Assembly: GCF_964355755.1 (NCBI RefSeq)
Contig: NC_092670.1
Coordinates: 31,855,795-31,919,794 of the forward strand
Direction of reading: 5' to 3'
Length of the DNA stretch: 64,000 nucleotides
DNA from: Antedon mediterranea
Taxonomy: Eukaryota; Echinodermata; Crinoidea; Comatulida; Antedonidae
The position numbers and the translations under genes are program-made. The notes under the pieces were generated by a model, which saw only the letters and a list, made by a program, of their open reading frames with translations, was not told the origin of the DNA and searched no databases. Positions within the stretch are counted from its first letter, which is position 1, and the number at the start of each line of letters is the position of its first letter. Of this stretch, positions 2,896 through 48,850 are shown in pieces.

Positions 2896-4587
2896 TTATT
2901 CTATAATTTCTAAGTATTCGACATTACTGTCATTGTTATCGGTACTGGTGATTGTTGTGCTGTATACATGGGTTGTTTTCGCGGGCTGTAAGTGGTTTTG
3001 TACCGCGTGTCCATCCAGTGGTTTGAAGGTTGTCGGAGATTCACTGTTGACATTCAATCTATAGCAATAACCTTTATTTGTAAACAACTGTTCGGTTTTA
3101 CTTGTGCTGTTTAAAGTTTGTGAGGGTGGCATATTTGCGTTTTCAGCTCTCACTATCTGCCCGCTTGTTGAAGGTATGTTTTCATCTGCAGGTTGTTTAG
3201 CTTTTGTATTTCTCTTTTTAGGTATTGGCGGTTTATTTTTTACTTTTGTAGCTTTCGCTGTAAGTTTCGCTTCTCGAGCTCTTGAATGTTTCTCATTGTT
3301 TCCTATGTCATGATAGACGTTTTCTTCTGGTCGTTCTACTGCAATCTGTACAAGTTTAGCTTCATTGTCGTGTTCGTTTGTTTGATCTTGCTGGCTTCTT
3401 GAGGTTTCAACATTACTGTCTTGCCTGCTACTTCGAACTTGTACTACATTGTTAGACTGTTTACCGTGTTTTCTTATAAGTAAGTGAATCAATACAAGTA
3501 CAATGATTAACAATATTCCAGATGTAGATACAAAAATTATAATGATTAAATCTTTTTTCGTTATATATTTATTGTACTTCCCTTCGTTAGTAGTTTCAGA
3601 AGTACAGATTGTGCAAAGAGATGCTTGTGTGGGTGCTTCTTCAATTTCTCCGTTGACATATATTTCATCAAAGCTGCGTTGACCAACAGAACTCACCAGG
3701 CATTTGATGGTGTAATTACAGGCTGCTATATTGGAGAAACATATTTCATTGTCATCATTGTAACTCTTTATCTCAGTCATGTCATGACTATCTACTGTCC
3801 AGTTATATAACTTATCACTTATAACTCCACCAGTAGCTACACATTTAAAGCAATGCTCACCAAAACGATGCTGCATTGTCTTGATTCTCACTGTTAATCG
3901 TGGATGAACATTTAGTATTTTTGTATAGCACCAATTCATAATACCGGCTTTCTGATCTTCTCTTGAAAGACAATAAAAGAATAGACCTTCTCCCCATTGG
4001 TAACCGTTGAAAATTTGATTAAAACGCACAGTCTCTCCGTTAGCATCTAAATCGTAAGTCTGTGTAGTACTATTTTTTCCTTGGATCCATCCAGTTTTTA
4101 TTTTCGAAATTTGTGTTTTTGATAATAAACGTTTCACTGTGCATGTAATGGTTACTTCTTCCCCTTCTATGATATAATTTACTAAATCTTCACACGCAAT
4201 TCTCCAACCGAAATATATTATATCATTCTGCTTAACGCTGCCTGAAGGAATCACAAAGTATTGATTGTTGATGTCTTGGCAGGTGTATATTCCATCTTCT
4301 TCTTCTTCTTGAGTAAGCCTATCGTAAGAAATGAATAGTTCACATTTGACTTTTATCAGATTTGGTGCAGAATGTTTTGCAAAATCAGTACAGTTATGAG
4401 TAAATGTATAATCAGATTTATATGAAACTGTATACTCCTTACTTAACGGTACAATGTTAAGAGGTTGTGACCAGCTTTTCATTGAATAATAATACACTTC
4501 AAAATCAACATTGTTTTCTTCAGCCCGACAATCTTTGACAATCATTAAGAAAAATATTACGATGAGATACAACATTATTTTCGTCAT
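2896..4587 (-). CDS. Receptor A: single-exon Ig-like type I membrane receptor with tyrosine-motif tail
   Basis: An uninterrupted 563-codon frame. Residues 1-22 are a signal peptide. Three cysteine-paired, Ig-like modules follow: D1 about 23-105 (C82, C103 in an IYTC motif), D2 about 125-228 (EGEEVTITC, then GWI and FFYC, the usual C...W...Y-x-C layout) and D3 about 230-312 (CFKC, YNW, CFSN, IKC). A stalk with several Cys/Thr leads to a membrane span at about 346-371 and a basic stop-transfer RKHGK. The roughly 190-residue tail has NVYHDI, a proline-rich basic patch (PPIPKK), HVYSTT and a C-terminal VEYLEIIE. That last box fits the ITIM pattern V-x-Y-x-x-I. There is no intron in the coding region, unusual for a multi-Ig protein. 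I know no named family with this exact layout; a recognition receptor is inferred. Confidence 0.85.
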   Translation of the reverse strand: MTKIMLYLIVIFFLMIVKDCRAEENNVDFEVYYYSMKSWSQPLNIVPLSKEYTVSYKSDYTFTHNCTDFAKHSAPNLIKVKCELFISYDRLTQEEEEDGIYTCQDINNQYFVIPSGSVKQNDIIYFGWRIACEDLVNYIIEGEEVTITCTVKRLLSKTQISKIKTGWIQGKNSTTQTYDLDANGETVRFNQIFNGYQWGEGLFFYCLSREDQKAGIMNWCYTKILNVHPRLTVRIKTMQHRFGEHCFKCVATGGVISDKLYNWTVDSHDMTEIKSYNDDNEICFSNIAACNYTIKCLVSSVGQRSFDEIYVNGEIEEAPTQASLCTICTSETTNEGKYNKYITKKDLIIIIFVSTSGILLIIVLVLIHLLIRKHGKQSNNVVQVRSSRQDSNVETSRSQQDQTNEHDNEAKLVQIAVERPEENVYHDIGNNEKHSRAREAKLTAKATKVKNKPPIPKKRNTKAKQPADENIPSTSGQIVRAENANMPPSQTLNSTSKTEQLFTNKGYCYRLNVNSESPTTFKPLDGHAVQNHLQPAKTTHVYSTTITSTDNNDSNVEYLEIIE

Positions 4588-4720
4588 AGTTCTTCATAAG
4601 ATAAAGTAATTCTTCAAATGTTTTATTGAGAGAATTAAAAACGTGTTGCTGCTAAGAATGATTGAATAACATTAACGGTTAGATCGAGAAGAAGGAAGTA
4701 AAAACAAAATCCATTTTTTA
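4588..4720 (-). promoter_or_regulatory. Conserved upstream block of receptor A
   Basis: The first ~130 bp upstream of the ATG resemble the equivalent regions of receptors B, D and E. Shared features are a stretch reading GAATGATTGAATAA on the plus strand and, farther out, AGAAGGAAGTAAAAAC with an ETS-type GGAA core. Promoter or 5'UTR function is inferred from this conservation; no TATA box could be fixed. Confidence 0.4.
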
Positions 4721-7260: not shown

Positions 7261-8593
7261 CTATGTCTCCAACACAAAATAATGAGGTGCTTCAGTGTCA
7301 TTGCTGTCACCTTCTAATCTATTCGCATTAATTATTGGATTTGTTCTTAACTTGTTATCATCCGTATTGTCTGTTTTAACATAGACATTCTCATCATTCC
7401 TATCTGTATTGCCAATTGTATAGTAAGCATCTTCTTCAGCAGCGGTCTGTGGAACATTAGACACATTCATATGGGTGTTTCTCTGATTACTTGCAGTAGG
7501 CCTTGGATTCTTGCCGGACTTTCTCTTAAGTAGATATAAGAAAATAAAAACCACTATCAACATACAGAATGTTGATGCTGCCAGTAACTCTTTGTAATGA
7601 TCTTCTTCAGTTGGACATTTATACATATCGGTACTTGCTTGTGTTGGCACAGTATATGTACACCCATCGTTGCTATCTACAACATCAACCTTAGTTGGTT
7701 TATCATCATTGACGATGAACTCTATTTCATCAGAGCTATATTGATAATAAGCACTCACCAGACATTTGACGACGTAATTACCAGCTGTTAAATTGTTGAA
7801 ACACATTGTGTTACCATGATCACTATCATTCTCGGTCACTTCCTGACTATTTAATGTCCAATTATAAATGTTTTCTTTACCAACTCCAGATGTAGCCACA
7901 CATCTAAAACAGTGATCACCAATATTTAGATGCATTGTTTTGACTGCCACCATTAATTGAGGGTGAACCTTAAGAATTAACATATAACAGCCTGTGGTAC
8001 TGTATGTAATGCAATAGAAAAAAATGCCTTCCCCAGAGCTGTAACCTTTAAATGTTTGGTTGAAACTTACTACCTCTGTGTCAGAATTCAAATCATATGA
8101 TTGCGTAATGTTATATTTTCTTTGTATCCATCCTACCGTTATTTTATAATTGATGTTCTGTGTTTGATATACGTTTCACCTTGCACGCAATCGTTACTTC
8201 TTCTCCTTCAATGATGTAATCCACCATATCTTCACATGCAATTTGGTAAATGAATTCTTCTACCGTATCCCGATAGACTCTATCCGAAGGAATCGAGAAG
8301 TATTTACTATCATCATATTGGCATGTGTATATTCCTATTTGTTGTTGTGTATTAAAAGATATGAAAAGTTTGCATTTTACTATTAACGTCTGTGATACAG
8401 TATATCCTACTTTGTTGCCTATCTCAAGCTTAATATACTCCTTACTTGACGGTATGATATCAATAGGTTGTGACCAATGTCTACTAGTGGAATAGTAATA
8501 GTGAAAACTGACAACCTTTTCTTCTGCCCCACCATCTCTGAAAATCATCAATAAACTGATCAAAAGAAGACAATTATTAAGAAACGGTATCAT
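7261..8593 (-). pseudogene. Receptor B: Ig-like receptor with a single frameshift
   Basis: The 5' part (about 8146-8593) encodes a signal peptide starting MIPFLNNCLLL, D1 (IYTC) and the start of D2 (EGEEVTIAC). The ATG at 8593 is chosen over the upstream in-frame one at 8698 because it aligns with the starts of D and E. Around 8144-8148 the frame changes by one base; translation continues as GWIQRKYN, D3 (CFRC, YNW, IVNDD), a membrane span (about 7540-7610) and a short tail (AYYTIG, ENVYVKTD, HYFVLET). The tail lacks the YLEIIE end and is about 80 residues shorter than in A or E. No GT/AG pair would remove the break as an intron. Either a pseudogene or a sequence error. Confidence 0.75.
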
Positions 8594-11492: not shown

Positions 11493-11792
11493 TTAAAATG
11501 AATAAGAATCTCTTATTCTATTATTTCTAAGTATTTTTGAACATTTCTCGTCATTTTGGATATCATAATACAGTTTTTCTTCTGGTCTTTCTACTTTCAT
11601 ATCTTTGATCGGTGAATTGTGTAAACCCTCTTTGATGGTGTCTTCAGTTTCTGTTTGTTGGCTTCTTGAGGTTTTAACAATACTATCATTTCTGCTGCTT
11701 TGGGCTTGTTTTACATTGTTTGGCTGTTTCTCGTGTTTTCGTATGTAAAGCAATACAAGTACAACAATTATTAATATTCCAGATGATTTCAA
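11493..11792 (-). pseudogene. Receptor C: TM and tail fragment with internal deletion
   Basis: The fragment begins inside the membrane span (SSGILIIVVLVLLYIRKHEK, close to receptor E) and runs through the first tail box EKLYYDI at about 11548-11570. It then jumps out of frame into the last codons of the family. The bases at about 11519-11540 encode YLEIIE plus TAA in a different frame. So about 130 tail codons were deleted, and the frame used now ends in unrelated residues. The ectodomain is absent; the upstream junction at about 11786 joins directly to 5' flank-like DNA. Confidence 0.8.
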
Positions 11793-16109: not shown

Positions 16110-17605
16110 TTACTCTATTATTTCCAAGTATTCATTATTACTGTCAATATCGATGATATCCTTACTGTGTGGATGTCTTGTGATAGGCTGTAAGTAATCT
16201 TCTACTGTACCCAATGATTTGTCATTTATTGGAGCATTGCTGACCTTAAAGCTAAATCCGTAACATTCATTTGTAAAAACCTCAACATGTTCTCTTTTAT
16301 TTGCACTAGGTCTATTTACTTTATGCGATGGAAATTCCATATCTGCGTGTACCACATTCATTTGCGTACTTGTTGAAGGTTGATCATCATTGCTAATGTT
16401 ATAATATATCTCTTCTTTTGTATTTTTCCTCGTAGAAGTGAACGGTTTATTGCATTTTTGCTTAACACTCACAATACTGTTCAATAACCACTTTGTTGAA
16501 CTTTTCTCTTCGATTTCAAACTGCATTTTTGCTTCTGTTTTTTCTAATTTCATCATTTTGATCTGAGAAGAGTGTATAATATCTTTGACGTTATCTGTCT
16601 CATTGGGTCCTGTTTGTCGACTTCTGGAGGTTTCAAAAGTACTATCTTGTCTGCTGCTTTCAATTGGCATTGTATTGTTTGGCTGTTTATCATGTTTTCG
16701 TTTAATCAACAATAGTACAATAATTATTAGAATTCCGGATGTAGTTGCCAATATTATACTTACCGGTATTAGATATTTACAGTCATTCACTTGGTTTGTA
16801 ATTTGAGAAGGCCTGCCATTGGCTATTGTATTTGAAATTCCTGCTTCAGTAATTGGCACAGTGTATACTGAACCATTGCCACCTTCTCCATATTTTTCAT
16901 TTGTATTATCTTTTACGATGAACTCTATCTCATCAAAGCTGTGTTGATCATTCTTACTCACCAGACACTTGGCCACGTAATTACCAGCTGTTAAATTCTT
17001 GAAACATCTTTCGTTGTCACAATCCTTATTATTTTCTATCAGTTTTTTATTATTTAGTGTCCAATTATAAAATTTGTCATCACAAAATCCACCTGTAGCT
17101 ACACATTTATAACAATTTTCACCAACATCTGCGGTCATTAATTTTATCTTCACCATGAATTGAGGATGAACCTTTAAAACTAGTGTATAACAATGATTCG
17201 TTGTAGATAAACTTTCTATTGAGATAAAATTTGTTTTTCTATAAATATTGTTCGTTTTTAACATTCGTTTCACCTTGCATGACATTATTACTTCTTCTCC
17301 TTCTATGATGTACTCTACTAAATCCTCACATGCAATTTTCCAATCAGAGTATATTATATTATTTCTACGGCTGACACGGTCCGAAAGAACTACAAAGTAT
17401 TTATTGTCGTTATTTTGACATGTGTATATCCCTTCTTCTTCTTGTGTATCAAAAGAAATGAATTGTTCGCATTTAACCGCCAATTTTGATGCAGAATATT
17501 GTTTGAAAGTGTGCTCAACAGTCAATTTACCGTACATTAACGTAAGATCATACTCTTTACTTACCGATATGATGTTTATAGACTCTGACCAATCTCTACT
17601 GGAAG
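16110..17605 (-). pseudogene. Receptor D, main part (interrupted by BEL/Pao element)
   Basis: About 498 receptor codons, open throughout. They carry D1 with IYTC, EGEEVIMSC, a shortened D2, D3 (CYKC, YNW, CFKN, AKCLVS, FIVKD), a membrane span near 16680-16770 (TSGILIIIVLLLIKRKHDK) and a tail with IYYNISND, NECYGF, DYLQPI and terminal NEYLEIIE. The frame runs on past 17605 for 19 codons, but these lie in the transposon LTR and are not receptor sequence. The true N-terminus is at 31880-31987. D2 has lost about 45 residues in frame, including the GWI and FFYC strands. The interrupted gene can no longer make a secreted-signal protein unless the LTR supplies a new start. Confidence 0.85.
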
Positions 17606-18337
17606 TGTGCTGCCCTCGATAACGGTCGCGTCTTCTAGACAGCCAGATAACCAAATAAGACACTAGATGTACATATAGGTAGAGTTTCGTTACTAACGTT
17701 TATTATGCGTCGTATCGTAGTATATTATATTGGTAAAACTGTGGAGGATTACAAAGAAAAACATTATCTAGACTACATTAAAAATAGCAATACAGCGTAC
17801 AAACATTGTATTTAGCTGTTTAAGCAAAAAAGGTAACGTAAATGATAATCATATATAACTGCTATACTAACCTAAATTAATTAATATCTTTAATTGCTAT
17901 AACATTTCAACAAAGGTTTAGGCATCAATGGTAAAATTATGCCTTATATGCATTAAGACTAGGAATGAATTAACAATAAATCATCGTCCTAGATTGTAGA
18001 CTGTAATTATTAAAATAGATACTGTACATATATAGCCAGTACTATATAAAGTAGTAACTTGATTAAATAGTATATATGGACCTATATATGGCCTAATTAA
18101 AAGTTAAAATAACAATCATAAATTAACATGTACTCACACACTGTGATTCTCAAATAGAGGCACGTAAAAGGTATAAAAAGAAATGAAACTTGTAAACGAA
18201 AAGCATATAAAAGCTTGTGGACTTCTCTCGGTGAATGCTACTGTATTACTAATACTTTATACTGTACAATGTACAAATTAAGTCAATGCATTGGAATGTC
18301 CAAATCCAAACAAGTGCCTTAATGATAATACAGTGTG

Positions 18338-18696
18338 CGAGGAAGGAACAAGATAGAGTAAAGGCTACTGAAGTACTTAATTTTCTGAATGTAAATACGA
18401 CAATATCAAAACCGATTAGACTTGGAACTAAGCGAAATGATGAGAAACCACGATTGCTTCGAATAACTGTAGATGGAGTTGAAGTCAAGAGAGAAATTCT
18501 GAAAAAAGCTAAGGGCTTAAAGCAAGCGGTAAATAAAGGCTACGATAGAATATTCCTCACACCGGATCTCACACCATCTCAAAGAGAAGAAAGTAGTAAA
18601 TTGAGAGCTCAGTTAAGGCTACGTAGAGATAAAGGTGAGAACGTTATTATAAGGAAGAGGAAGATTGTATCAGTGCAATCCTTTCGTGACCACTAA
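18338..18696 (+). pseudogene. LINE ORF1 C-terminal fragment
   Basis: About 119 codons from the element, with the RNA-chaperone-like C-terminus seen in CR1/L2 ORF1 proteins: PRLLRITVDGVEVK, LTPDLTPSQREES and a basic end RRDKGENVIIRKRKIV. The first 17 codons of the open frame (18286-18336) are host LTR sequence. It overlaps the ORF2 frame, as usual in these LINEs. Confidence 0.7.
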
Positions 18697-21626
18697 GAAT
18701 ATAAATGAACCTAATCGCACAGCACCTTTATTTTTACAAGAAGATTTTGACTTAGAAGAAGATATTTCGTTCAGAGACAATACTTTTGTTGAACACGATT
18801 TTGAACTTGCAGCCCAAGAAGAATATTTAAGTTGTTTTTATACCAACGCAGAAGGGTTTTTGAACAAACGAAGCGAATTTTTTGTTTTGATAGAAGAAAG
18901 GAAACCGCACATAATTGGTATTACTGAAACATGGTTGAGCGATAATGTGCTAGACGCTGAAATAGCAATGAAAGGTTATAATTTGTTTCGCAAGGAAAGA
19001 GCGAATAAAGCGCATGGTGGATTGTTATTATATGTTAATGAGAAACTACATGTTACCATTTGTAATGAATTGTGTCAATTAAATCCTGAATCGCTATGGT
19101 GTACTGTGGAAGTTGATAAACATAATAAAGTTCTGATAGGTCTTTGCTATAGGAGTATGTACAACACACCTGATGAAAATGAGCAATTGTTTTACCAACT
19201 ACGTTTTATTGAATCGGTACAATCTGACCACGTGTTGATAATTGGAGATTTTAACCTTAAAGAAATTAATTGGAAGGATATGTTGGTTAATGCTAGCGTT
19301 ACACATCCATCAAACACTTTTTTTGAAATAATCAACGATTTATACTTGGTGCAACATGTCAAGAGTAATACGCGACACAGAGATGGACAAAGATCATCCC
19401 AATTGGACCTTATTATTACTGATGATGATTTTAAGGTATCTAACCTACTACATTTACCCCCTTTAGGGAAAAGTGACCACGATTGTTTGTTTTGGCAGTA
19501 CGTCTATAAACTTGATATTCCCAGTAAGGAAACCAAGTCATTTCACAACTACAACAAAGGCGATTATATAAGCATAAAGCGTGAACTGAGTAATATCAAT
19601 TGGTCCGATGAATTTGATAATCAAACTACCGATGAAATGTACAACAGTATTAATGAAGTATTGTGTAATATGACTGAGTTATATATTCCTACATTTGGAA
19701 GTACTCGTAGTAAAGGTCAGAATAAACCCTGGATGACATCAGCTGTTAAAAAATCAGTAAAAAAGAAATATCAACTGTACAAAAGCTTCAGAGAAACACA
19801 AAACGAGAGAGATCATATGGCTTACAAGAAACAGAACAATCGTACTAGGCAAGCTGTAAGGAACGCTCAAGCTACCTTCGAAAAAAAAATCTTGATGGAA
19901 TTCAAAAACAAACCAGAGAACTTTCATAAGTATGTTAGATCGAAACAGAAAGTAAAGACTGGAATAACAAAATTAGTAAATAATGATGGGCTAACCTTGG
20001 AAACTGACTACGAAATTAGTGAGGAACTCAACAAATGCTTCCAAACATTTTTCACCAAAGAAGATCCTGACGAAGACATAACCAATTTTAATTATGATAC
20101 TTGTGACAAATCAGTTGAAAATATTGAGTTCTCCCAAGAAGATGTTTTTAAGCAACTCCGAGGTTTGAAAATCGATAAAAGTCCTGGTCCAGACAACATC
20201 CATCCATGTCTACTTAACAAGTGTGCTGAGGAGTTATCAGAACCCTTGTACCTTTTATTCAAGAAGTCTACAGAGGAAGGTAAACTACCAAAAATATGGA
20301 AACGAGCTGATGTCTCTCCGATCTTTAAGAAAGGCAGCAAATCACAAGCGTCCAATTATCGACCGATAAGCCTAACATGTATTATTTGCAAGATCTTTGA
20401 ACATATTATTCGTAACAACATACTACGACATGTTAAGAACAATGCAATACTAACAACAGAGCAACATGGTTTTGTTGAGAAGAAATCATGTCTGACAAAT
20501 CTTTTAGAATTTATGGAAGATGTTACTAAGGCCTTGGATGACAACAATAATGTTGATGTCATATTTTTGGACTATAGTAAAGCTTTCGACAGCGTTCCTC
20601 ATAGGAGATTACTCATGAAATTGGAGAGCTATGGAATCAAAGGTCAATTGTTATTATGGATTAAAGATTTTCTTGATAACAGACAACAAAGAGTCAAAGT
20701 GCGTCATGCTTCTTCCAGTTGGGCTGATGTAATTAGTGGAGTTCCACAAGGCGGTGTTGGGCCCTACATTGTTTGCATTATATATAAATGACCTACCAAA
20801 GTATGTGTCTAGTCATATAAAGCTATTTGCTGATGATACAAAGATCTACTCAGTAGTTAACAACAGAAATGATGGGCAATTATTACAAGAATCTTTAAAC
20901 AATGCACTGCAGTGGAGTAAAGAATGGATGTTGGGTTTTAATAAAAGCAAATGCATGGTGATGCACTTCGGGCATTCAAATGTTCATTTTAAATACCAAA
21001 TAGATGAAGTTGAACTGGAAACAGTTGAGAAAATAAAGGACCTAGGAGTACTAATTACTAATGACTGTAAACCAAGCCAACACTGCGCCAAAGTATCTCA
21101 GCGGGCCATGAACTGTTTAAGAAGCATCAGAAGGACTTTCGTATATATGGATAAGGATTGTTTTAACGTCATCTACAAGCATTATGTACGCCCACATCTC
21201 GAATTTTGTGTTCAAGTATGGAATCCGTATCTTCAAAAGGACATAAATGTAATTGAAAGAGTACAACGTCGTGCGACTAAATTAGTTCCATGTATCCGTT
21301 CATATTCATATGAAGATCGTTTAAAGTTTCTTGGCCTAACAACCTTGTATGACAGAAGAATTCGAGGTGACCTGATTGAAGCATATAAAATTGTTAAAGG
21401 TTTCGAGGGTGTAGCCAAGGATGACTTTTTCCAAATGAGAAGTAACATTAGCAGAATTACTCGAGGGCATCACCTGAGATTTTTCAAGCCGACTTTCCAT
21501 AAAGGATTGAACTGTAGAAGACATACCTTCTCGCAACGAGTAATTAACCATTGGAACAGTTTACCAGCCGACGTTGTCAATTCTGAGACCGCTAATACCT
21601 TCAAGAATCGCATCGACACAATGTAG
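18665..21626 (+). pseudogene. LINE ORF2: APE endonuclease and reverse transcriptase, one frameshift
   Basis: The endonuclease lies at about codons 60-280: NAEGF, GITETWL, GDFNLKEINW, LDLIIT and KSDHDCLFW. The reverse transcriptase follows: KSPGPDNIHP, YRPISL, EQHGF, FLDYSKAFDSVPH and GVPQG. At about 20750-20757, within the GVPQG...LGP motif, the frame changes and continues as LGPTLFALYINDLP with the catalytic FADD box (about 20826-20837), the thumb and the C-terminal QRRATKLVP region to the stop near 21626. The frameshift separates palm motif C from the rest, so this copy cannot make active enzyme. Confidence 0.85.
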
Positions 21627-21856
21627 TTGATATGGGGTTTAAAAAGGCACATCGCCTAAACTTTCCCATTATAACTAAACTAAACTAAACTCCAGGTCAA
21701 AACTAGGAGTAACCATGGTAACAATTAAAGTTGCAATAAATTCAATAGTGTACTGACTACATTTTATATTTAGGATAACTATACTAAATAAATTTGTAAG
21801 GAAATTTATTTGGAGACAAAATACTCCTCGTCTGGCATAACTCATGTCATAACTAA

Positions 21857-23228
21857 CTATTCGGATACAAGAACCACCAGATCTGAAATTGGTCTTGAAT
21901 ATTTTTTCATTCCATCTCCCTTCTGCGTTGTCAGTTCAACGTGCCTCACTAGGCCATCTGTACCAAGAAAAGCTTTCACCACTCTTGCAATCTGCCATTC
22001 GTTTCGATGTGCTTGCTTGTCTTTAAGCAACACAATATCCCCTTTCTTAATTGATTGCTTGGTGTCTTGCCATTTAGGTCGACGTTGCAAGTTTGAAATG
22101 TAGTCTTGCTTCCAACGTTTCCAGAAAGAATTCGCCAAACTCTGGACATGTCTCCACTGGGAAGTGTAAGATGTATTTGCGTCAAAATGTCCTAGGGGTG
22201 CACAATTTGTATTTGGTTTTTGCGTAAGCAACATAGAAGGTGTTAGGATTGTTGGTGCATCAGGATCAGTTGAAACCGGTACCAATGGTCTGGAATTAAT
22301 AATGTCCACGACTTCTGCCATCAACGTTGTAAGAATGTCATGGGTCAGTCTTGCTTGTTGATGTTGATTCAACATGGAGTCGAGAATGCGGCGTGCAATT
22401 CAAATCATCCTCTCCCAGGCTCCTCCCATGTGGGACGAATGAGGTGGGTTGAAGATCCATTTGCATCCTTTAGACTGAAGAAAGTTCTTAACATCATGCG
22501 TTCCTATCTGAAGGTTGAGTTCCCTTACCGCTCCAACAAAATTAGTTCCTCTATCGGATTGAATAATTCTTGCTGGTCCCCGAAGTGCAAAGAATCTGCG
22601 AAGGGCGTTGATTAAGCTTGAAGCTGTCATTGTCTCTAGAACTTCAATGTGCACGGCACGAGTCGACATGCACGAGAAGATTACCGCCCATCGTTTGCTA
22701 TTGGCACTTCCACCCCTGGTACGTCTAGAAGTCACATTCCAGGGTCCAAAGACGTCTATGCCCACACTGGTAAACGGAGGTGATGGTGTGATGCGGTCTA
22801 GTGGTAAGTCTGCCATCTTCTGTGTCGCAGTTTTGCCTCTTAATTTTCTGCAGGTCACACACTTGTATATCATTGTTGAAACAAGCCGTTTTCTTCCAAT
22901 AACCCAATATCCACCGGATCGTATTGCTCCTTCAGTTATGTGACGACCTTGATGGGCCACTCTGCGGTGATGATACCTAGCAATCAAGGTTGCCACATGG
23001 TTATCCGCTGGTAGAATTATTGGATGTTTTTGGTTGTAATCTATCTCTAGATTTTCAGAGCGCCCTCCGATTCTAAGTAGCCCGTCGTCTCCCAAAATAG
23101 GATCTAAGTTTCGAAGAGTGCCGGTCTTTGGTAATGGACGTCTCCTTTTTAGACATGCAATTTCATCTAGGTACGTCTCTTCTTGGACCGCCTGCACCAC
23201 AACGATTCTGGCTGCGCTAATCTCCTCT
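21857..23228 (-). pseudogene. BEL/Pao integrase with one nonsense codon
   Basis: Zn-binding H2C2 domain (HHRRVAHQG...CVTCRK), then a DDE catalytic core: GIDVFGPW, QSDRGTNF and GGAWERM. A C-terminal region with WKRWKQDYI, KKGDIVLL and WQIARV (the DUF5641-type tail of Pao integrases) follows. The core and tail are in the same frame but separated by a single TGA at 22397-22399, just after the catalytic Glu. The upstream junction with the RT frame at about 23225 is a frameshift in a G run. Confidence 0.85.
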
Positions 23229-24788
23229 AGTGTTATCTGGGAAGTAAACATTCCCCCATCCGTTGTTCTTTTTCAACTTGAACGAAGCTGCCAGTTTTAC
23301 CGAAGTTTGTACATAACATCTTGGTACCTTAAGATTTTCCATGTGGACTAGTGACTGTTTCCAACTGTCCCACTCTTCTTTGTATTCTGGATTAAGAGGA
23401 GCGTCCCAATCGACAGTTCCGGAGCTTAACTTTCTCACAAGGATTTTCCCTTGTAGAGTGATTAGTGATACAAGACCTAATGGGTCAAATAGGCTGTTGA
23501 CCACAGACAAAACTCCCCTTCTAGTGTATTCATCATTCTTTTGTGCTGATATCTTGAAGTTGAAGCTGTCTGTTTCCAAGTCCCATGATACCCCGAGACT
23601 TCGTTGGCATGGTGGAATTTCGCTTTTCAGATTGATGTTTTGTAAGTCTTTGGCCTTGTCTGCTTCGTCCAAAGCAGCCATTACTTGTTCACTGTTGGAC
23701 GCTATTTTGTGAAGGTGTAAGTTGCTTTCTGCAAGCATTGCCTTCGATTTTTGTATTAAGGCAATTGCTTCTACTGCAGTAGGTAATGATGTTAGTCCGT
23801 CATCAACGTAAAAATTACGCAAAATATATTGACTTGCTTCCGAACCATATTTTTGTTCGTATTCTTTTGCTGTTCTGCCCATACAATAGATAGACATTGA
23901 TGGTGATGGGGTGTTACCAAAAACGTGGACTTTCATTCGGTAATCAATTACTTCGTTATCCATGTTGTTGTCCTTGAACCACATGTATCTAAGATAGTCA
24001 CAATGATCTTCTCGAACATTGAAGCAGTAGAACATCTGTTCAACATCAGCTGTCACTGCAATTGGTTCTTTCCTGAATCTCAAGAGGACACCCAGAAAGG
24101 AGTTGTTGAGGTCAGGACCACTCAACAGAACTTTGTTGAGAGATACACCTTTCCACTCTGCACTTGAATCAAACACCACCCTTATTTTGCCTGGTTTCTG
24201 TGGGTGATAAACTCCAAACATGGGGAGGTACCATCGTTCTTTTCCTTCTTCCATAGGCGGTGCTGCTTCTGCATGTTTGTTTTTTACCATGTTTCCAATA
24301 AATTCAATGAATTGTTTCTTCTGTTCCGGTTTTTTATTTAAGGTTTTGCACAAACTATTGAATCTTCGTTGAGCCAGATCACGATTGTCTGGTAGAGGTT
24401 GTTTTAACGGCTTGAATGGTAGAGGAGCTACCCAACTACCCTTGTCATCCCTGAATGCATTATTGTCCATTATGTTCATGAACTGATGATCCTCAACAGA
24501 CATTGCAGGCTTATCATCGTTTTCTCCAACATTAAATACTGTTCGTCCTATTTCAGGCTCGTTGTCGTTTTGCTCGATCAAGTGGATTGCATTAGGGCAG
24601 GTTGGAAACTGTGTGACGTTCGCCTTATATACATTGGTTTGCTCCAGCGGCAACTGAACTTCGTCTAAACATGTTTGGCCGACAATTACCAAACCTAGAT
24701 CGAGTCGTTGAGCGTAAGGAGCATTGTCTGGGCCATTTATCTGCTCTCTGACTTTTTGCGCTTGTACTACATCTCTGCCAATCAAGAG
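23217..24788 (-). pseudogene. BEL/Pao reverse transcriptase, RNase H region largely missing
   Basis: Characteristic Pao RT blocks: WYLPMFGVYHP, KIRVVFDSSA, LLSGPDLNN, TADVEQMFY and the catalytic NFYVDDGLTS (about 23812-23841), then SLGVSWD, GVLSVVNSLFDPLG and VPRCY. After VPRCY the usual RNase H segment is missing. The frame passes within about 20 residues to a KKNNGW motif that in complete elements lies far downstream, implying a deletion of roughly 200 codons. The first ~160 codons (24305-24788) are one copy of a 484-bp tandem duplication. Confidence 0.85.
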
Positions 24789-27338: not shown

Positions 27339-28270
27339 GTTGTAGGTTGAGTAGTGTTTTTACTGTGCTGCCCTCGATAACGGTCGCGTCTTCTAGACAG
27401 CCAGATAACCAAATAAGACACTAGATGTACATATAGTTAGAGTTTCGTTACTAACGTTTATTATGCGTCGTATCGTAGTATATTATATTGGTAAAACTGT
27501 GGAGGATTACAAAGAAAAACATTATCTAGACTACATTAAAAATAGCAATACAGCGTACAAACATTGTATTTAGCTGTTTAAGCAAAAAAGGTAACGTAAA
27601 TGCTAATCATATATAACTGCTATACTAACCTAAATTAATTAATATCTTTATTTGCTATAACATTTCAACAACGGTTTAGGCATTAATGGTAAAATTATGC
27701 CTTATATGCATTAAGACTAGGAATGAATTAACAATAAATCATCGTCCTAGATTGTAGATTGTAGACTGTAATTATTAAAATAGATACTGTACATATATAG
27801 CCAGTACTATATAAAGTAGTAACTTGATTAAATAGTATATATGGACCTATATATGGCCTAATTAAAAGTTAAAATAACAATCATAAATTAACATGTACTC
27901 ACACACTGTGATTCTCAAATAGAGGCACGTCAAAGATATAAAAAGAAATGAAACTTGTAAACGAAAAGCATATAAATAGGCATGAAGCTGAGGTGGATTT
28001 TTGTTTCATTTCGTGACCACCAGAAAGGGATTTGACCAAATTGACATGATTATTACTAAATATATATAATAAAAGTATTGTGAGTTTTCACAAACATATT
28101 GCTTGCACATTAGTTTACAATCTCATTTTTAAAACTGATAAAATAGTTTTTTACAACCTCGTACACTACAACCAATCAGAAACATCGTATAAGCACCTGC
28201 TTGGTTACTTCTTGTATTGACCAATCAGAGATGATGTATTATCACTGTTTGGGCATAGTGCAGAGTAAAG

Positions 28271-28513
28271 ATGGCAGCTTACATGTCAGATGGGGATCAC
28301 CATTTGCGATGTTTTATGTGCATTTTTCCAAGCAAAAAGTCTTCAGTAGTAAAATTTAATGACAAGACATGGCCAACATTTTTAGAATATGTCACCAAAT
28401 GGAAAAATTTAGAAGGAAAACAAGCAGAAATTGCCAGAAATTACATCGCGAAATGTCAAGAAGGCCTGCAAGTGCCAACAACCATCATGCAAGACGAACA
28501 AGGTTCAATCTAG
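28271..28513 (+). CDS. Zinc-finger-like first exon of an element protein
   Basis: An 80-codon frame with HHLRCFMCIFPSKK (C-x2-C), FNDKTWPTFLEYVTKW and CQEGLQ. After about 28500 the sequence turns into TAGTAG-rich noncoding DNA, so the coding part probably ends at a donor near 28504 (CAAGGTTC). Function unknown; carried by the nested DNA element. Confidence 0.4.
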   Translation: MAAYMSDGDHHLRCFMCIFPSKKSSVVKFNDKTWPTFLEYVTKWKNLEGKQAEIARNYIAKCQEGLQVPTTIMQDEQGSI

Positions 28514-29170
28514 GCCTAGGCTAGTACTAGTAGTAGGCCTGCTGTGTGTGGAATTTCTATATGTGCTGGCTTTCATCAAGTTTGTTATTCTAGGTTTACT
28601 GACAAGCAGAGAGTTGAGAGAGTGCAAAAGAAAGTACAATTTGAAGCTAGCATTGGTAAGTTGATAAATATAAAAATTAAAATATTAAATTATTATTATA
28701 ATATTATTATAGGCCTAGGCTAGCCTATATTAATTAATAATATAGCATGCCCTACCAGTACTAGTAGTAGTGGGCTAGTAGTAGTAGGAGTATAGGCCTA
28801 GCCTAACTAAGCTACTATATTACTATTAAGGCCTACTAGTAGTACTACTGTCTGTAATATACCTAGCCTAGGCTAGAGAGAGGCCTAGCTTGGATTGTTA
28901 TATTTTATTACGTTTCATATTAAAAGTGCTTTCCTTTAAGTAGACCCCTGGCCAATTAAAAAAAAAAAATTGTTAGATGTTTTAGCTTGCCAATCCACTT
29001 AAGATGATTTTAAATTAAACCGATGGTAATTGTGCAAAAATGTATACTTGCTATTTTGACTCCTGGCCATTTGTTCATAGTATATAAATATGTTTATGCT
29101 TTTGATAACTTATAATTAAATTACTGAAAATCTAAAGCATAATAAGCAGTTATTATAGTGATATCTCTAT

Positions 29171-29695
29171 TTTTTATTGTATGCTTTAGCATCAACATCA
29201 ACTAATGAATCTGCTATCAACATGGAAGAGACAGATGATGGTATTTCTCGACCACCACCAATCAAAACACGATGTCTACGTTCAAGCACAGATTTATTCA
29301 AAAGTAAAGGCAAAGCCAGGTCGCACTGTGTATTGCCAAGCATCTGTGTTCTGTATTATTCTGTGTAAAAAAGACAAAAGCATCACTTGTCGAATAACAA
29401 GAAAAAGTGTTCGATAATAGAAGCACGTAATCTAGTTCAGGCAGCCAAAGACAACAACAACACTGAACTACTTCTTAAAATTCAAGGTAAAGACTGTGTT
29501 GCTATCGAAGTGCAATACCACCCTACTTGTTATAAGAACTTTACTCGGTATTTGGGTAAGCCCAATGAAGCAAGTACTTCTCTGGACACAAAATATTCTG
29601 AAGCGTATGATGTATTTTGTACCACAGTAAAAACAAATATTATTGACAAAAAGGAATTTTACAGGCTGACAAAACTCAATCAATCAAACAGATAA
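29171..29695 (+). pseudogene. Second decayed exon of the nested element protein
   Basis: Coding signal passes through three frames: EETDDGISRPPPIKTRCLRS, then a C-x2-C-K-K-D-K stretch near 29350, then KKCSIIEARNLVQAAKDN and VQYHPTCYKNFTRYLG. The last pair gives a plausible second zinc ligand set (H and C in YHPTCY). At least two frameshifts are needed to join these, so this copy is dead. Confidence 0.45.
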
Positions 29696-29886
29696 AGACT
29701 TCCTAGATAAACAATTGCTTCATGAAGAAATGTACAATATACTGTAACTGATACAGGAACAGACACAAATGTGCCCAATGTTGAAGATCATCACAGACAT
29801 AATACACCTTACACCATGAAAGAATGTAATGACAGTACCTCCAGAGACGCATCTGAAGATTCTAGAAATTTCCCAAGACATTGTTT

Positions 29887-30957
29887 ACCCCCTACCCCAT
29901 TATTGTCAACGATTACTAATGACGAACAAGTTTATTTATAATGCACAGCATATTCAATTTTGAAAAAATGTTAAATTCAGTTTTCTTATTTATTGTGTCT
30001 ATAGGTTTAAGAAAACATTAGTTTGCATAAGATATCTTGTATTTTTGTGTTTAAAATTGAAATTTATAAGCTAATTTCGAAGAAATTGCATTTTTTATTA
30101 AAGGTCAGTGACCGTTTGACCTCTGAAGATGTCAATAAATGTTGGATTCATTTTTTAAAAGGTATATTACAATTAGGCAATCTATACACTACATACAGAA
30201 AAATGCAAATCTGTTAAAATTGTAAGTTATTCACAAAAATGTTACCCCCTACCCCATAATTGTAAATGATTACAAATTACTAAAAACAACAAATTTCTTC
30301 ATAATACATAGCATATTCATTTTTTGTTAATCTTTAATTTCAATTTTCTTGTTTATTGGGTCTATATGTTTATGAAAACATCAGTTTCCATATTATCTAT
30401 TGTATTTTTTTTTGTTAAAGTTAGAAAAAAATTCATTTTTTTATTAAAGTTCAATGACCTTCTGACCTCTAATGTTGTCAATATTTGTTGGATTTATTTA
30501 GAAAAATATATTAGGCTTAAGCGTTCTATACACTACATTCTGATACCAAGAAAATGTAAATCTGTTCACTCAATCCCAAGTTATTAGCAAAAATGTTACC
30601 CCCTACCCCAAAATTTTGTGTTGCATATTTTCCGTAGGCGGTGTTATATAATCTTAAAAAATGACTATTAAGCTGTACAATTGGCATTGCTATCATGGAT
30701 TTCTGAAAAGTAGACATGCTAAGCTTTCCAAAAATGTATGATAGCGTTTGCCACCAATTTGATACTGAAAAAATGTCTGGCCCATGTCTGCTATGTATGT
30801 ATAGATATACTTACATAGACAGCTTCATTATAATATGTGTTTTTGATGGTTCATGCTGTAATTACAGGGTAATTGGTTTATTTTATAGCTTTTAAAGTTC
30901 ATTAATTGTATTTCTGATGCAAGAAAACATATAATTAGACATCAAAATCACTGAAAT
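29887..30957. repeat. About 355-bp tandem repeat, two and a half copies
   Basis: The marker ACCCCCTACCCCA occurs at 29887, 30244 and 30598 (spacings 357 and 354). The intervening units share a GCATATTCA / GAAAACAT.AGTTT / GTTGGATT order but are diverged. Noncoding. Confidence 0.7.
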
Positions 30958-31428
30958 CTAATAATGTTTTCTGTATATTTTGCATATGATAAAGATAAAA
31001 GTTCGTTGACCTTTGAACATTTTTGGTGATAACACCCTCATGTACGATTTGATGCATACCAAACTATATATTTTTGGATTCTTTGCATCCAGCCGAGTAT
31101 TTTGATATATAATTTGCCATAAATGGACTATTTTTCATATTTGACCTTAATTGACCTTAAAATCTCGCTAACGAACAAGTTTTGAGCTTGTGAAAAATAA
31201 TATGTTGTTCGTATGATCCTACTGCTCCATCATACAAAAAATTACGAAATCCCTAGGTGGTGGTCACGAAATCGAAAAACTAATTGCATATAAAATGCCT
31301 ATGGCCTGCTGTCTAAAAAGCTTGTGGACTTCTCTCAGTGAATGCTACTGTATTACTAATACTTTATACTGTACAATGTACAAATTAAGTCAATGCATTG
31401 GAATGTCCAAATCCAAACAAGTGCCTTA

Positions 31429-31723
31429 GGGTATGTTCAGACCTACGGATCAGCTTGGCTATACGATGAGGAGCACATGTCACGATGTGATGTGGCGAAT
31501 ATTGTAATTTGATTGGCTAGATATCTAACCTAGGTCATATTTATCGATGCGTGACTTTCGTATTGTAAGCGACGTCCACTAAACTCATACCTTGAGCTTT
31601 CGTAGCGTACGAAATATCAGTGTCGTACGAGGTGGCTTCCACTAATCTTTTCCTGGTTCAGACCTATGGACTTGTACGCCGCGTACAATACGAAAGCATA
31701 ACTCCGTAGGTCTGAACAGGCCC
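31429..31723. mobile_element. PIF/Harbinger-type MITE, 295 bp
   Basis: The ends GGGTATGTTCAGACCTACGG and, reversed, GGGCCTGTTCAGACCTACGG form inverted repeats. They are flanked by TTA on both sides (31426-31428; 31724-31726), the 3-bp TWA duplication typical of PIF/Harbinger. The left BEL LTR shows the empty site with a single TTA. No coding capacity. Confidence 0.85.
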
Positions 31724-31879
31724 TTAATGATAATACAGTGTGGTACTCCAGGTCAAAACTAGGAGTAACCATGGTAACAATTAAAGTTGCAATAAATTCA
31801 ATAGTGTACTGACTACATTTTATATTTAGGATAACTATACTAAATAAATTTGTAAGGAAATTTATTTGGAGACAAAATA

Positions 31880-31987
31880 GGAAGAATAATAGTAATGAAA
31901 CTCAATTATTTTGTCTTCTGCCTCAACATTTCTGACAATCTTCAATAGACAAGAAATTACCAGAAGACACGTATTAAGAAACGACAT
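31880..31987 (-). pseudogene. Receptor D, detached N-terminal 36 codons
   Basis: On the minus strand this reads MSFLNTCLLVISCLL, a signal peptide matching receptors B and E, then EDKIIEFHYYYSS. It stops exactly at the BEL target duplication. Counting the GGAAG duplication once, it joins in frame to 17605 at SSRDWSES, matching the STSRHWSQP / SSRHWSQS of the paralogues. The receptor D promoter and start codon are now about 14 kb from the remaining coding sequence. Confidence 0.9.
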
Positions 31988-36628: not shown

Positions 36629-38359
36629 TTATTCTATTATTTCTAAGTATAAATTGTCACTGTCATTATTATCATCATTGATGATTTCATTGCTGTATAG
36701 ATGTGTTGTTGTTATAGGCTGTAAGTAGTCTTGCAGAGTATCCAATGATTCATTAATGACATTGAAGCTACCACCATAACATTCATTTGTGAAAACCTCA
36801 ATATGTTCCGTTTTGTTTTTACCAGCCCTGTTTACATTTTGGAAGGGAATTTCCATATCTTCGTGTGTATCTCTTACTACTTCTACCTGCTTACTGGTTG
36901 AAGGTTCATCATCGTTGCTAATGCTATAATATACCTCTTCAGCTTGTTTTTTGTCTATCGTATTTTTCCTTGTAGATGTGAACGTTTTATTTTGTGTCTT
37001 CTTAGCCTTCTTTAGCAAATTTGTTGAACTTTTCTCGTCATCGTCGATGTCATAATAAAGTTTTTCTTCTTCTGGGCGTTGCTCTAGTTTAATCGTTTTT
37101 ATAATGTGTGAAGGTTGTACAATCTCTGTTATGCTATCGGTTTCTTCAGTTGTTAGGCTTCTGGAGGTTTTAACAATACTACTTCTTTGAATATGCATTA
37201 TATTGTTTGGCTGTTTCTCATGTTTTCGTATGAAAAGCAATACAAGTACAACAATAATTAGTATTCCAGATGTAGTTGCTAGTATTATAATTACTAACTC
37301 TTTGTTGGCTATATCTTTACTGTTCTTCACTTGGTTGCTGAGTTGAGAAGTACTAGTTGTATGCAAAAATGATGTTTGTGAAGGTGTATAACCGGTTAAG
37401 GCGTTTGTACTTACAATCTCCGTTTGTTGTGATGTATCATCTTTAACTATGAAATCTGTCTCACCAAAGTTGTACTGATCATCTGTACTCACCAAACATT
37501 TGACATTGTAATTCCCAGCTGTTAAATTATTGAAACAGATTTTGTTTCCGCAATCACTATCAGTCACCTTGTCACTATTTAATCTCCAATTAAACACTTG
37601 TTTGCCATATCCATGTAAAGCTAGACATTTAAAGCAATTTTTATCAACATTGTTGATTGCCACCATTAATTGTGGATGAATCTTAAAAGTCAATGTGTAA
37701 CACCGATGGATTAGACTATCGGGGGTTAGGAATAAGGAAAGACAATAAAAGAATAAACCTTCTCCCCTTTGAAAACCCCTGAGTGTTTGATTAAAACTTA
37801 CAGTCTCAGTGTCCGTATTACATTTAAACGACTGTGTAATGCTGTTGTTCCCTTCAATCCATCCTATGGTCATTTCATAATTGCGGTAATGTTTGGTTGA
37901 GAATGATATAAGTTTGCATGCGATTGTTACTTCCTCTCCTTCTATGAGGTACTCCACTAAATCTTTACAGGAAATTCTCCAATCGAAATAGTTCTGTATG
38001 CCTGTAGTTTTTAGGCTGACGCTGTATGAAGGAATCACAAAGTATTGGTTATCATCGTCTTGACACGTGTATATCCCTTCTTCTGACTGTGTATTATAAG
38101 AAATAAATACTTCGCATTTGACTTTTGTAAACTTTGATCCCGAACGTTTTTGTAAAACTTTGTCGTTAACAGTAAAATTACCATAATATGAAACGCGAAA
38201 ATCATATTCTTTACTTGATGATATGATGCTCAAAGATTGTGACCAGTGTCGACTTGAAGTAAAATAAAAATCAAACTCAATAATTTTTTCTTCTGCACCA
38301 ATATCTTTGACAATCATGAAACTGACAACCATAAGACACGTATTTAGAAACGGCGTCAT
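36629..38359 (-). CDS. Receptor E: intact single-exon Ig-like receptor with tyrosine-motif tail
   Basis: 576 codons, uninterrupted. Signal peptide 1-22 (MTPFLNTCLMVVSF). D1 about 23-105 (C82, C99 in IYTC), D2 about 128-225 (EGEEVTIAC, GWIEGNN, FFYC), D3 about 227-308 (CFKC, FNW, CFNN, VKCLVS). A Ser/Thr-rich stalk spans about 309-353. Membrane span about 354-378, then RKHEK. The tail has KLYYDI (Y435), VYYSI (Y477), NECYGG, DYLQPI (Y545), LYSNEI and terminal LYLEIIE (Y571). It is the cleanest member and the best reference for the family. N-glycosylation sequons (e.g. NNSIT, NNLT) are present in the ectodomain. Ligand and pathway unknown; SH2-recruiting signalling is inferred. Confidence 0.88.
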   Translation of the reverse strand: MTPFLNTCLMVVSFMIVKDIGAEEKIIEFDFYFTSSRHWSQSLSIISSSKEYDFRVSYYGNFTVNDKVLQKRSGSKFTKVKCEVFISYNTQSEEGIYTCQDDDNQYFVIPSYSVSLKTTGIQNYFDWRISCKDLVEYLIEGEEVTIACKLISFSTKHYRNYEMTIGWIEGNNSITQSFKCNTDTETVSFNQTLRGFQRGEGLFFYCLSLFLTPDSLIHRCYTLTFKIHPQLMVAINNVDKNCFKCLALHGYGKQVFNWRLNSDKVTDSDCGNKICFNNLTAGNYNVKCLVSTDDQYNFGETDFIVKDDTSQQTEIVSTNALTGYTPSQTSFLHTTSTSQLSNQVKNSKDIANKELVIIILATTSGILIIVVLVLLFIRKHEKQPNNIMHIQRSSIVKTSRSLTTEETDSITEIVQPSHIIKTIKLEQRPEEEKLYYDIDDDEKSSTNLLKKAKKTQNKTFTSTRKNTIDKKQAEEVYYSISNDDEPSTSKQVEVVRDTHEDMEIPFQNVNRAGKNKTEHIEVFTNECYGGSFNVINESLDTLQDYLQPITTTHLYSNEIINDDNNDSDNLYLEIIE

Positions 38360-42099: not shown

Positions 42100-43504
42100 C
42101 CGTAAATCTTCTAATTGTAACCCTGGGTTATTATTCTTTGATTGTTTTTTAGGGTGGGTTACTATTAGGAGAGGGGTTACTATTAGAGTAGTGGGTTACT
42201 ATTACTAATTTAGGCACCTGGAAATAGTAACCCACCCCCAACTTTTCCGGTTAGCAACTCATAGCAAAATAATAAAAGTACGAATAAACAAATTTGTTTG
42301 AACTCTAACTATACTTTAAACACCCCTTCCCCCCACTCTCGAGATCAATATGCATTATTATTCAAAATACGGCCGCATCATAAACGATCAATAGTTTTTG
42401 TGACTGTAATAGTAATAGTCTAGTAGGAAGGAGGGGTTACCGTGCACCCCCATGATGTATTTTTTTAATGTACATTTTTGTAATCCTGAATATATGTAAT
42501 TAACATTTTTTGATGTTCCCAAGACGAAATATTGTCCCATGGGGTTTTTTTGGGGCCATTTTGGTGGCCATCTTGGATTTATCAAAATCATAAATATAGA
42601 CGGTACTTGACAAAGACTGGTCATAGAGGTCTGATTTTGGTCTTAAATTGTTCAGAATATGCACATTTCTATGTACTATAATGAAAAGTTTTCATTCAAA
42701 ATGGCCGTAAATGCCACTTTTGACCTTTGACCTTGTTTTTACATAAGGGTCATATCTTGGTAACCCCTGGTCATAAAGATTTTATTTTTATCTTAAATTG
42801 TTCAGAATATCCATATTTATATTAGCTTTAATGGAACATATTTTTGAAATTTGACGAGAAATATCATGTTTGACCTTTGACATTATTGCATAACGATTTT
42901 CGCAATAATTTAGACTATTCTTGTATTTGATCTATATCTTGACAACGAGTGATCGTAGAGGTTTGATTTTGGTCTTATATTGTTCAGAATATGCACTTTC
43001 CTATGTACTATAATAAAGCATTTTCATACAAAATGACCGGAAATACAACTTTTGACCTTTGACCTTGTTTTTACATAAGGGTCATATCTCGGTAACCAAT
43101 GGTCATAACGATTTTATTTTTGTTTTAAATTGTTCGGAGTATCCATATTTATATTAGCTTTAATGGAACATATTTTTGGAATTTAGCGGGAAATATCACT
43201 TTTGACTTTTGACATTATTTCAACCCGAGGGTCATATCTCGGTTACCCCTGGTCATAAAGACTTTATTTTTGTCATAAATTGTTCAGAATATCCATATTT
43301 ATATAAGATTTAATGAAATACAAATTTTGACCTTATTTTCACCTGAGGGTCATATCTCGGTAACAAATTTTGTCTTAGATTGTTCAAAACATACATATTT
43401 CTATCCACTCTAATGAATATTTATTTAAAACAATGATTTATAGATGAGGGCGTATCAATTTGATCTCTGGTGGGCGTGCGTACAACTGAGGACTAGTTGT
43501 GTTC

Positions 43505-45037: not shown

Positions 45038-45420
45038 TCATCCACTAAATGTAAAAATTTGGGTCCGATATTGGTCTTTATGTTCTTGCTGTACAGAGGA
45101 TTGAACCAAATGATGTTTCTGTTCTGTTTCGGGTTTTCTTTTTGGTTGCTTGTTCAGGTGTAGCTCATGTTCATATCCATTATTTCTAAGTGCTTGTTGG
45201 TACTGAGGTATTGCTGCATTAAACGAATTTTCATCGGATGAGATGTTTGAGAGTCGTTTATTTATTGCTAGTGGTATATTGCGTAATTGATGGCCGATGA
45301 TTACTTTCACGGTGTACATATAATGGCGTATTGTTTGGTTTGGTGTATATGGGTGGAAGGTACCTGTCCTCAGATCGAGTGTCAAGTCAAGTCAAGAATA
45401 CCATCCACGTGTAAAATACA
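45038..45420 (-). pseudogene. Penelope-like retroelement RT fragment
   Basis: The frame reads TLDLRTGTFHPY, IRHYMYTVKVIIGH, NIPLAINKRLSNIS and FNAAIPQYQQALRNNGYEHE. From memory this order (LDL..G.F.PY, then the P..I..RLS.IS block, then YQ.AL...GY) is that of Penelope-like elements downstream of the RT core. No GIY-YIG domain is visible. Fragment only. Confidence 0.6.
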
Positions 45421-46953
45421 ATTATCCCCTTTTCTTTCCCTAAATTTTCCATTATTTAATGAAGAATAGAATTTGATTAGAATGTATTTTTGTAGCCGTC
45501 TATCAGAACTGTTTCCAAAATAAATTAAGATTATGAAGATGTTGACATTAATTTTGTTATTGTCTCTTCCAATTGGACAATAAACACATTCTATTGGATA
45601 AAAGTTGTTTGCAGGCCTAAAAGTAGCCACCTTTAATTATGAATAATTATGTAATGAAACGTGTTATCAGACACTTTTTTTTAATTATTTATCAGATACT
45701 TTACATTTTACCTTTTTGTTTGACTTTTTTCTAATTTGAGAATTGTTAAGAATTCTCGCATTATATGTAAATTATAATTAGATAGGGGTCAAAGGTAAAA
45801 AAGGGACATTTATTCTCAGTTTTTGAGGATAAATCATCATTAGAGTGGATAGCATGTATATTCAACAGTTTTTTATAAAGTCTGTAATTTTCCCTTTTTC
45901 TCAGCATGTTGTTATTTTATTTTAATACATCTTTTAAATTTATTTTTACTTTAAAACAGAAAAAATTCTTACTGTATGAGAATTCTGTGGAATGTGTTAA
46001 ATGTGACAATTGATACGCCCTCATCTATAAATCATTGTTTTAAATAAATATTCATTAGAGTGGATAGAAATATGTATGTTTTGAACAATCTAAGACAAAA
46101 TTTGTTACCGAGATATGACCCTCAGGTGAAAATAAGGTCAAAATTTGTATTTCATTAAATGTTATATAAATATGGATATTCTGAACAATTTATGACAAAA
46201 ATAAAGTCTTTATGACCAGGGGTTACCGAGATATGACCCTCGGGTGGAAACTAGGTAAAAGGTCAAAAGTTGTATTTCCTGCCAACTTTCAAAAATATGT
46301 TTCATTAAATCTTATATAAATATGGATATTCTGAACAATTTATGACAAAAATAAAGTCTTTATGACCAGGGGTTACCGAGATATGACCCTCGGGTTGAAA
46401 TAATGTCAAGGGTCAAAAGTGATATTTCCCGCTAAATTCCAAAAATATGTTCCATTAAAGCTAATATAAATATGGATACTCCGAACAATTTAAAACAAAA
46501 ATAAAATCGTTATGACCATTGGTTACCGAGATATGACCCTTATGTAAAAACAAGGTCAAAGGTCAAAAGTTGTATTTCCGGTCATTTTGTATGAAAATGT
46601 TTTATTATAGTACATAGGAAAGTGCATATTCTGAACAATATAAGACCAAAATCAAACCTCTACGATCACTCGTTGTCAAAATATAGATCGAATACAAAAA
46701 TAGTCTAAATTATTGCGAAAATCATTATGCAATAATGTCAAAGGTCAAAAATGATATTTCCCGTCAAATTTCAAAAATATGTTCCATTAAAGCTAATATA
46801 AATATGGATATTCTGACCAATTTAAGATAAAAATAAAATCTTTATGACCAGGGGTTACCAAGATATGACCCTTATGTAAAAACAAGGTCAAAGGTCAAAA
46901 GTGGCATTTACGGCCATTTTGAACGAAAACTTTTCATTATAGTACATAGAAAT

Positions 46954-47910: not shown

Positions 47911-48479
47911 CATAGAAATGTGCATATTCTGAACAATTTAAGACCAAAATCAGACCTCTATGATCAGTCTTTGTCAAGTACCGTCTATATTTATGATTTT
48001 GATAAATCCAAGATGGCCACCAAAATGGCCCCCAAAAAACCCCATGGGACAATATTTCGTCTTGGGAACATCAAAAAATGTTAATTACATATATTCAGGA
48101 TTACAAAAATGTACATTAAAAAAATACATCATGGGGGTGCACGGTAACCCCTCCTCCCTACCTTACTATAACACCTAGGTTACTATTAGAGTAGTGAGTT
48201 ATTATTATAGATTGACTCATAAAAGGTGGGTTACTGTTAGAAGGGGTGGGGGGTTACTATTAGAGTGTGGGTTACTATTAGAAGATTTACGGCGGTAATA
48301 CTATTGAGCATAACAGTCAAAAGGGATATAATCGTTATATTTTACAATATCTGTATATATTTTACTTTAACCGTGTAGGTCTAGTCTTTAAGCGACAGAT
48401 ATCAAAGTGTTAGATATTGTAAGTTAAATATTTGTGACATAGGCCTATAGGCCTAGTTTACATTAGGCCTATGCTCCAA

Positions 48480-48850
48480 ATGAATTCTATTATTTTATTA
48501 TTTATCACTTTTATTGATGATGTTCTTGCTTTTTGTTGTTGTTATACTATGAGTAATCTTGCACTGTATCTGATCATTTGTCATTTGTCAGAGCATTGGT
48601 GATATTGAAGCTAATTTATTTGTGAAACCTATGTTCCATTATTGTAAAAAGGCTCTTCCTCTGAGAGGAGGTTCATATCTTCGTACCGTGTGTAGGTCTA
48701 AATGTCATAACAAATTATTTCTTCAGGTTGTTTGTCTTTTGTATTTTTCCTCGCAGTTGAATGACAGTTTATTGAAAGACCACTTCTTGGGCCGGTCTTT
48801 AATTAGAGTGATCCAAGGCTACTATAAAAGTGAAGTAGACCCCTGAATCC
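48480..48850 (-). pseudogene. Receptor F: decayed tail relic
   Basis: Plus-strand wording follows the E tail (36700-37010) in order: GAGTAATCTTGCACTGTATC, GGTGATATTGAAGCTA, ATTTGTGAAACC, TTCATATCTTCGT, TTCTTCAGGTTGTTTGTC and TATTTTTCCTCGCAGTTGAA. That is the coding strand of the DYLQP, NECYG and YYSI boxes read backwards, with many indels. No ectodomain or membrane span survives. It is the last detectable array member before BRCA1. Confidence 0.65.

Follow-up and report, generated by a model that had tools for sequence, protein, structure and literature searches.

Single acidic YxxL/I half-motifs signal in the hemITAM receptors CLEC-2 and Dectin-1, which are type II C-type lectins, and the Alr genes of Hydractinia are multi-exon. 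The Alr genes constitute an expanded invertebrate Ig-like family, for which ITIM/ITAM-type motifs have been reported (cited in PMC12065747). The FcoR receptors of Botryllus combine a V-Ig and a sushi domain with two C2-Ig domains; they possess canonical ITIMs, have partner fester genes and swap their motifs by alternative splicing (PMC12065747). The hallmark of the vertebrate paired receptors, such as SIGLEC11/16, CEACAM, KIR, SIRP and CD300, is the combination of common ectodomains with different tails (PMC3533184, PMC5701461, PMC5112662), and the similarity of SIGLEC11/16 is maintained by gene conversion (PMC5701461).

The receptor family described here, met as an array in a window of 64,000 nucleotides (G000:C1:31855795-31919794), is like the vertebrate paired receptors in its clustered Ig genes, near-identical ectodomains with different tails, fast turnover and pseudogenes, and unlike them in the one-exon coding region, the chance level of ITIMs and the hemITAM-like motifs of both main tail classes. 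It shares with the Botryllus FcoR (PMC12065747) an invertebrate multigene type I organization, a length of ~520-610 aa, Ig domains, YxxI/L/V and hemITAM motifs and the distribution over several chromosomal groups, but has three modules and swaps its parts at the genomic level. The likeness to Hydractinia Alr is one of description, namely that of expanded invertebrate Ig-like receptors with tyrosine motifs, and the acidic single YxxL/I unit is common with the hemITAM receptors, although the members here are type I Ig proteins, often with several such units. The literature search returned no match for intronless invertebrate Ig families, nor for ambulacrarian ITIM/ITAM families. The family probably represents a large lineage-expanded set of intronless Ig-superfamily type I receptors with recombining tails and a recognition role.

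The receptor array in the window

Open frames and tblastn revealed five family members in the window, all on the minus strand, confirming the related genes A, B, D and E and the fragment C that the earlier note had proposed. Receptors A (2896-4587, 563 aa) and E (36629-38359, 576 aa) are intact single frames with LONG-type tails, and E matches A at 46% over 570 aa (E-value 8.5e-100), far above chance. The predicted layout of a signal peptide, three cysteine modules, a membrane span and a tyrosine tail was borne out. On the minus strand of receptor E it comprises D1 (38000-38296), the most variable and an atypical Ig-like module; D2 (37679-37999) and D3 (37436-37678), both Ig-like with a Cys-Trp-Cys pattern and an extra cysteine pair, D3 being the least variable; the membrane span (37229-37297) with the sequence LVIIILATTSGILIIVVLVLLFI; and the cytoplasmic tail (36629-37228), which carries LYYDI, VYYSI, NECYG, DYLQP and YLEIIE.

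Receptor B (7261-8593, minus strand) is read in two overlapping frames with one frameshift, inside D2, and its SHORT-type tail is placed amid the LONG-tailed A, D and E. The tail end YLEIIE, which had been taken as common to the copies, does not extend to B, whose different tail reads EDAYYTI...APHYFVLET. Fragment C (11535-11786, minus strand), found by tblastn, consists of the membrane span and the proximal tail only and is 65% identical to E over 83 aa (E-value 2e-14).

Receptor D is severed by an insertion of 14.3 kb (17606-31879), in which an LTR element of the Pao/BEL type and a LINE-like one are found. The body of D (16110-17605, minus strand) runs from D1 to a LONG-type tail, with ~55 residues of D2 absent in frame, and its open frame starts within an LTR. 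The head (31880-31987, minus strand) codes for the signal peptide and the first ~36 residues, including the start codon and the start of D1. The five-base target-site duplication GGAAG stands on both sides of the insertion, the left copy at 17601-17605 and the right one at 31880-31884, where it opens the head piece, and the host flanks joined without the insertion give a single open frame of 532 aa; the head at ~31.9 kb is therefore assigned to D. A sixth copy, claimed as a relic at this place, is thus the severed head of D. The Pao/BEL-type element lies on the minus strand, with Peptidase_A17 and integrase matches and two LTR stretches (17606-18211 and 27364-27976) that are almost identical; the LINE-like element, on the plus strand (18653-21626), adjoins the first LTR. 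The copies do range, as had been noted, from intact (A and E) to fossil, B, C and D being broken by a frameshift, reduced to a fragment and split, respectively.

Between 38.6 and 48.9 kb of the window, tblastn gave no family-like match. The same part of the window holds an inverted repeat (42665-43327 and 46291-46953) with 663-nt arms, 98% complementary, a spacer of ~3 kb and internal 150-nt repeats. Farther on, a plus-strand gene (54600-60277) has very long open frames of 1372 and 269 aa; its last exon ends in a BRCT-like stretch of 19 residues suggestive of BRCA1, for which the Pfam and PDB searches gave no support.

Copy number and ectodomain architecture in the genome

The paralogue count suggested by the earlier note proved large: with three protein queries against the genome (354 Mb, 18 contigs), ~100 loci were located, which form 16 groups (three being single copies) on contigs C1, C2, C3, C7 and C10. 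These numbers are approximate, the match pieces being merged by distance and the search scoring the best candidates only, with ~40 loci known from match rows alone. Over the ectodomain, ~70 loci keep an open frame of at least 350 aa without interruption, and many copies are frameshifted or fragmentary. In the intact members, the ATG, signal peptide, modules, membrane span, tail and stop are all in one exon, a statement that covers the coding region and leaves room for an intron in the 5' UTR.

Upstream of the ATG, an ACTTCC/TTCCTT motif, ETS-like by eye and often at about -90 to -120, was seen in many members (15-18 of 37 genes, with ~2 expected in shuffles); since shared descent could account for it, no regulatory claim is made. 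On C2 (G000:C2 17551783-17553729), a part of D3 (query residues 200-225) is repeated in tandem as short copies, at a spacing of 84 or its multiples. The genome also contains an ordered Hox cluster of Hox1-8, 9/10 and three 11/13 genes, with the homeodomains assigned by inspection, and a Dlx-like homeodomain on the same contig; this Hox complement suggests an ambulacrarian host. In the two enteropneusts of PMC11175523, by contrast, the Hox cluster and distalless lie on different chromosomes. A COX1 search directed at the identity of the host gave no match; a pterobranch or a crinoid would be a suitable, if speculative, candidate.

As had been anticipated, no named family was matched in Pfam or among the PDB sequences beyond weak generic Ig matches. 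A profile of nine diverse ectodomains aligns in register to Ig1-3 of NCAM2 (E-value 4e-6), which is still matched by one of 24 diverse members (6.6e-5); Pfam Ig_3 is matched by 11 of the 24 (best 7.5e-5, below Pfam's own cut-off wherever shown), and the Pfam sandwich family Y_Y_Y by 15 of them (best 1.6e-7). The residues C126/W145/C184 of D2 and C223/W236/C266 of D3 are invariant across the 24 members, and each of the two modules carries one extra cysteine pair. In D1 the YxC motif of strand F is present, and the other invariant cysteine stands just 17 residues earlier; D1 is therefore atypical, and the canonical Ig disulphide is absent from it in the 24 members. The variability declines from D1 to D3.

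The claim of three Ig-like modules is supported for D2 and D3 by the profiles, by the spacing of Cys and Trp and by a D3 model of fair quality, whereas D1 is atypical. The D3 model (pLDDT 72) resembles Ig domains (Z 8.7), among them nectin-like proteins, contactins and CD33, with PKD folds tied at 8.3, and the whole-ectodomain AlphaFold model, built from the window rows only, is poor (pLDDT 47). The Foldseek and VIA matches of the latter, to complement, transglutaminase and macroglobulin sandwiches, were given no weight.

Exchange between ectodomains and tails

The main new result, as read from the sequences, is a modularity of these receptors, an ectodomain/tail exchange not visible from the window alone. 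In four paralogue sets, spread over three clusters, the ectodomain coding DNA is 91-98% identical and then diverges abruptly into different tails, the divergence point falling in the stalk or membrane span in all four. The identity between L010 and L016 stays at 97-100% from the beginning of the retrieved DNA up to the end of D3 and is at background afterwards, and the same pattern is seen in L013/L018, L022/L025 and L028/L065, the last being the weaker set because its tails are still 66% alike at the DNA level. The new tails are joined in frame directly after D3 or the membrane span. The reverse case, with nearly identical tails on more different ectodomains, is given by L010/L015 and L003/L005, and on the ectodomain tree at least five changes between the LONG and SHORT tails are placed.

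Assembly errors or unresolved haplotypes might in principle produce such shared ectodomains, and L010/L016 and L022/L025, whose identity of 97-100% extends over more than 2 kb and takes in the upstream DNA, look as mis-joined repeats could look; but four sets in three clusters change always in one and the same functional segment, every tail type is met again in further, clearly separate members, and in two sets a divergence of several percent has accumulated, so that we regard this explanation as very improbable. The idea that a single gene uses the tails as alternative 3' exons was also considered and rejected, as no long tail turned up on the downstream side of those short-tailed genes that were examined. 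In L010, which belongs to the clearest pair, the distal tail is frame-shifted relative to L013 by a difference in the length of an adenine run near locus base 3085; an intron as the cause of the split tail was ruled out by this homopolymer difference. A second tail relic is situated ~0.9 kb downstream of the L010 tail.

Under the preferred reading of a recombining receptor family, its members would multiply by tandem duplication together with exchange at the stalk/membrane segment, which would fit one ectodomain to different tails and create paired-receptor-like sets, and the tails would gain and lose tyrosine cassettes.

The selection estimates, which are simple pairwise ones, do not single out the tail. 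Mostly, dN/dS is 0.5-0.9 for the ectodomains and 0.4-0.9 for the tails; for the three genes A, D and E the ratio is 0.41-0.48 for the membrane span with the tail and 0.50-0.58 for the ectodomain, at identities of 41-63% and 47-50%, respectively. The strong constraint that had been ascribed to the conserved C-terminus was not upheld by this comparison, the tail and ectodomain values being similar. High tail identity as a sign of constraint was likewise rejected on L003/L005, whose tails are 98% identical at a dS of 0.018, the ectodomain dS being 0.209: tails that are strikingly alike are also low in dS, which points to recent exchange. Diversifying selection is unsupported, since the ectodomain dN/dS is mostly below 1.

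Values near 0.5-0.9, together with the many broken copies genome-wide and the broken B, C and D of the window, would also suit a decaying family of mostly passive duplicates, whose tail differences arose by random breakage. Against such decay, ~70 loci retain a single frame of at least 350 aa, the cysteines and tryptophans are invariant in 24 diverse members, and the new tails join in frame just past D3 or the membrane span, and we judge it quite improbable.

Tail motifs and a possible recognition role

The LONG tail class is defined by YYSI cassettes, NECYG, DYLQP and a YLEII end, and the SHORT class by YYTIxDT and an HYFVLE end; further classes carry NYSITIANTS, YYEIK or, on C7, tandem YVSS cassettes. 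Acidic YxxI/L/V (hemITAM-like) motifs were observed 24 times, in 16 of 46 tails, as compared with a mean of 1.4 and a maximum of 6 in shuffled tails, a test that ignores the common descent of the motifs. The ITIMs were not enriched in the tails (12 observed vs 11.7 shuffled), and tandem ITAMs were absent from them. The hemITAM-like motifs occur in both main tail classes, and the sequences, with one type of motif common to the two, therefore give no sign of opposite signalling.

A receptor of the recombining family would expose its three modules outward at the cell surface, where they would bind a ligand; the tyrosines of the acidic YxxI/L/V motifs would be phosphorylated, and SH2 proteins would be recruited to them, most likely in the hemITAM style, and two tails borne by one ectodomain might signal differently. 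Judged from the motifs, hemITAM-style signalling by the tails is likely. The role of the family may be immune or lie in self/non-self or allorecognition.

The form YxxI/L/V by itself also matches that of endocytosis signals. The tail tyrosines could serve YxxPhi trafficking or cytoskeletal adaptors in receptors of non-immune adhesion, neural or gamete recognition, and adhesion molecules, namely NCAM2, nectin-like proteins and contactins, come nearest among the solved structures in profile and fold. The acidic context preceding the tyrosine is strongly enriched, however, and the copy number, the clusters with decayed copies, the rapid sequence change and the repeated exchange of tails are seen more usually in families of immune or allorecognition receptors, which makes the adhesion alternative unlikely in our estimation.

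The four sets show what is known from paired receptors, neighbouring loci whose ectodomains are very similar and whose tails differ, and hemITAM or core YxxI/L/V motifs in a long tail are found as in FcoR. The opposite ITIM and ITAM/adaptor-binding elements of paired receptors were not detected in the tails, and no sushi domain was matched in the family members by Pfam at E-values up to 1 or 0.1. The tails give no evidence of an activating/inhibitory pair, since the ITIMs are at chance and both main classes are hemITAM-like; the family is assigned to neither paired receptors nor FcoR because it lacks the opposite motifs of the former and the domain set of the latter. Tentatively, and without holding it the likelier case, we propose that this is an independently evolved invertebrate paired-receptor system, in which stalk/membrane recombination would supply one specificity with alternative tails and cassettes would tune the valency. 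The joining of an ectodomain to different tails is already known from the vertebrate paired receptors, and the closest invertebrate parallel found, FcoR, uses splicing; if the proposal is true, ~100 intronless genes swapping tails genomically outside chordates would mean that the same solution has arisen again. The natural tail-swap pairs permit a direct test of the tail role with the ligand-binding part near constant.

On C7, at 2.0 Mb, the tails of L027, L078 and L081 are built from a unit resembling QTDYVSSDTVIENKRLQNARNENRETAE, repeated many times in tandem, and the number of tyrosine units accordingly differs among these three paralogues.
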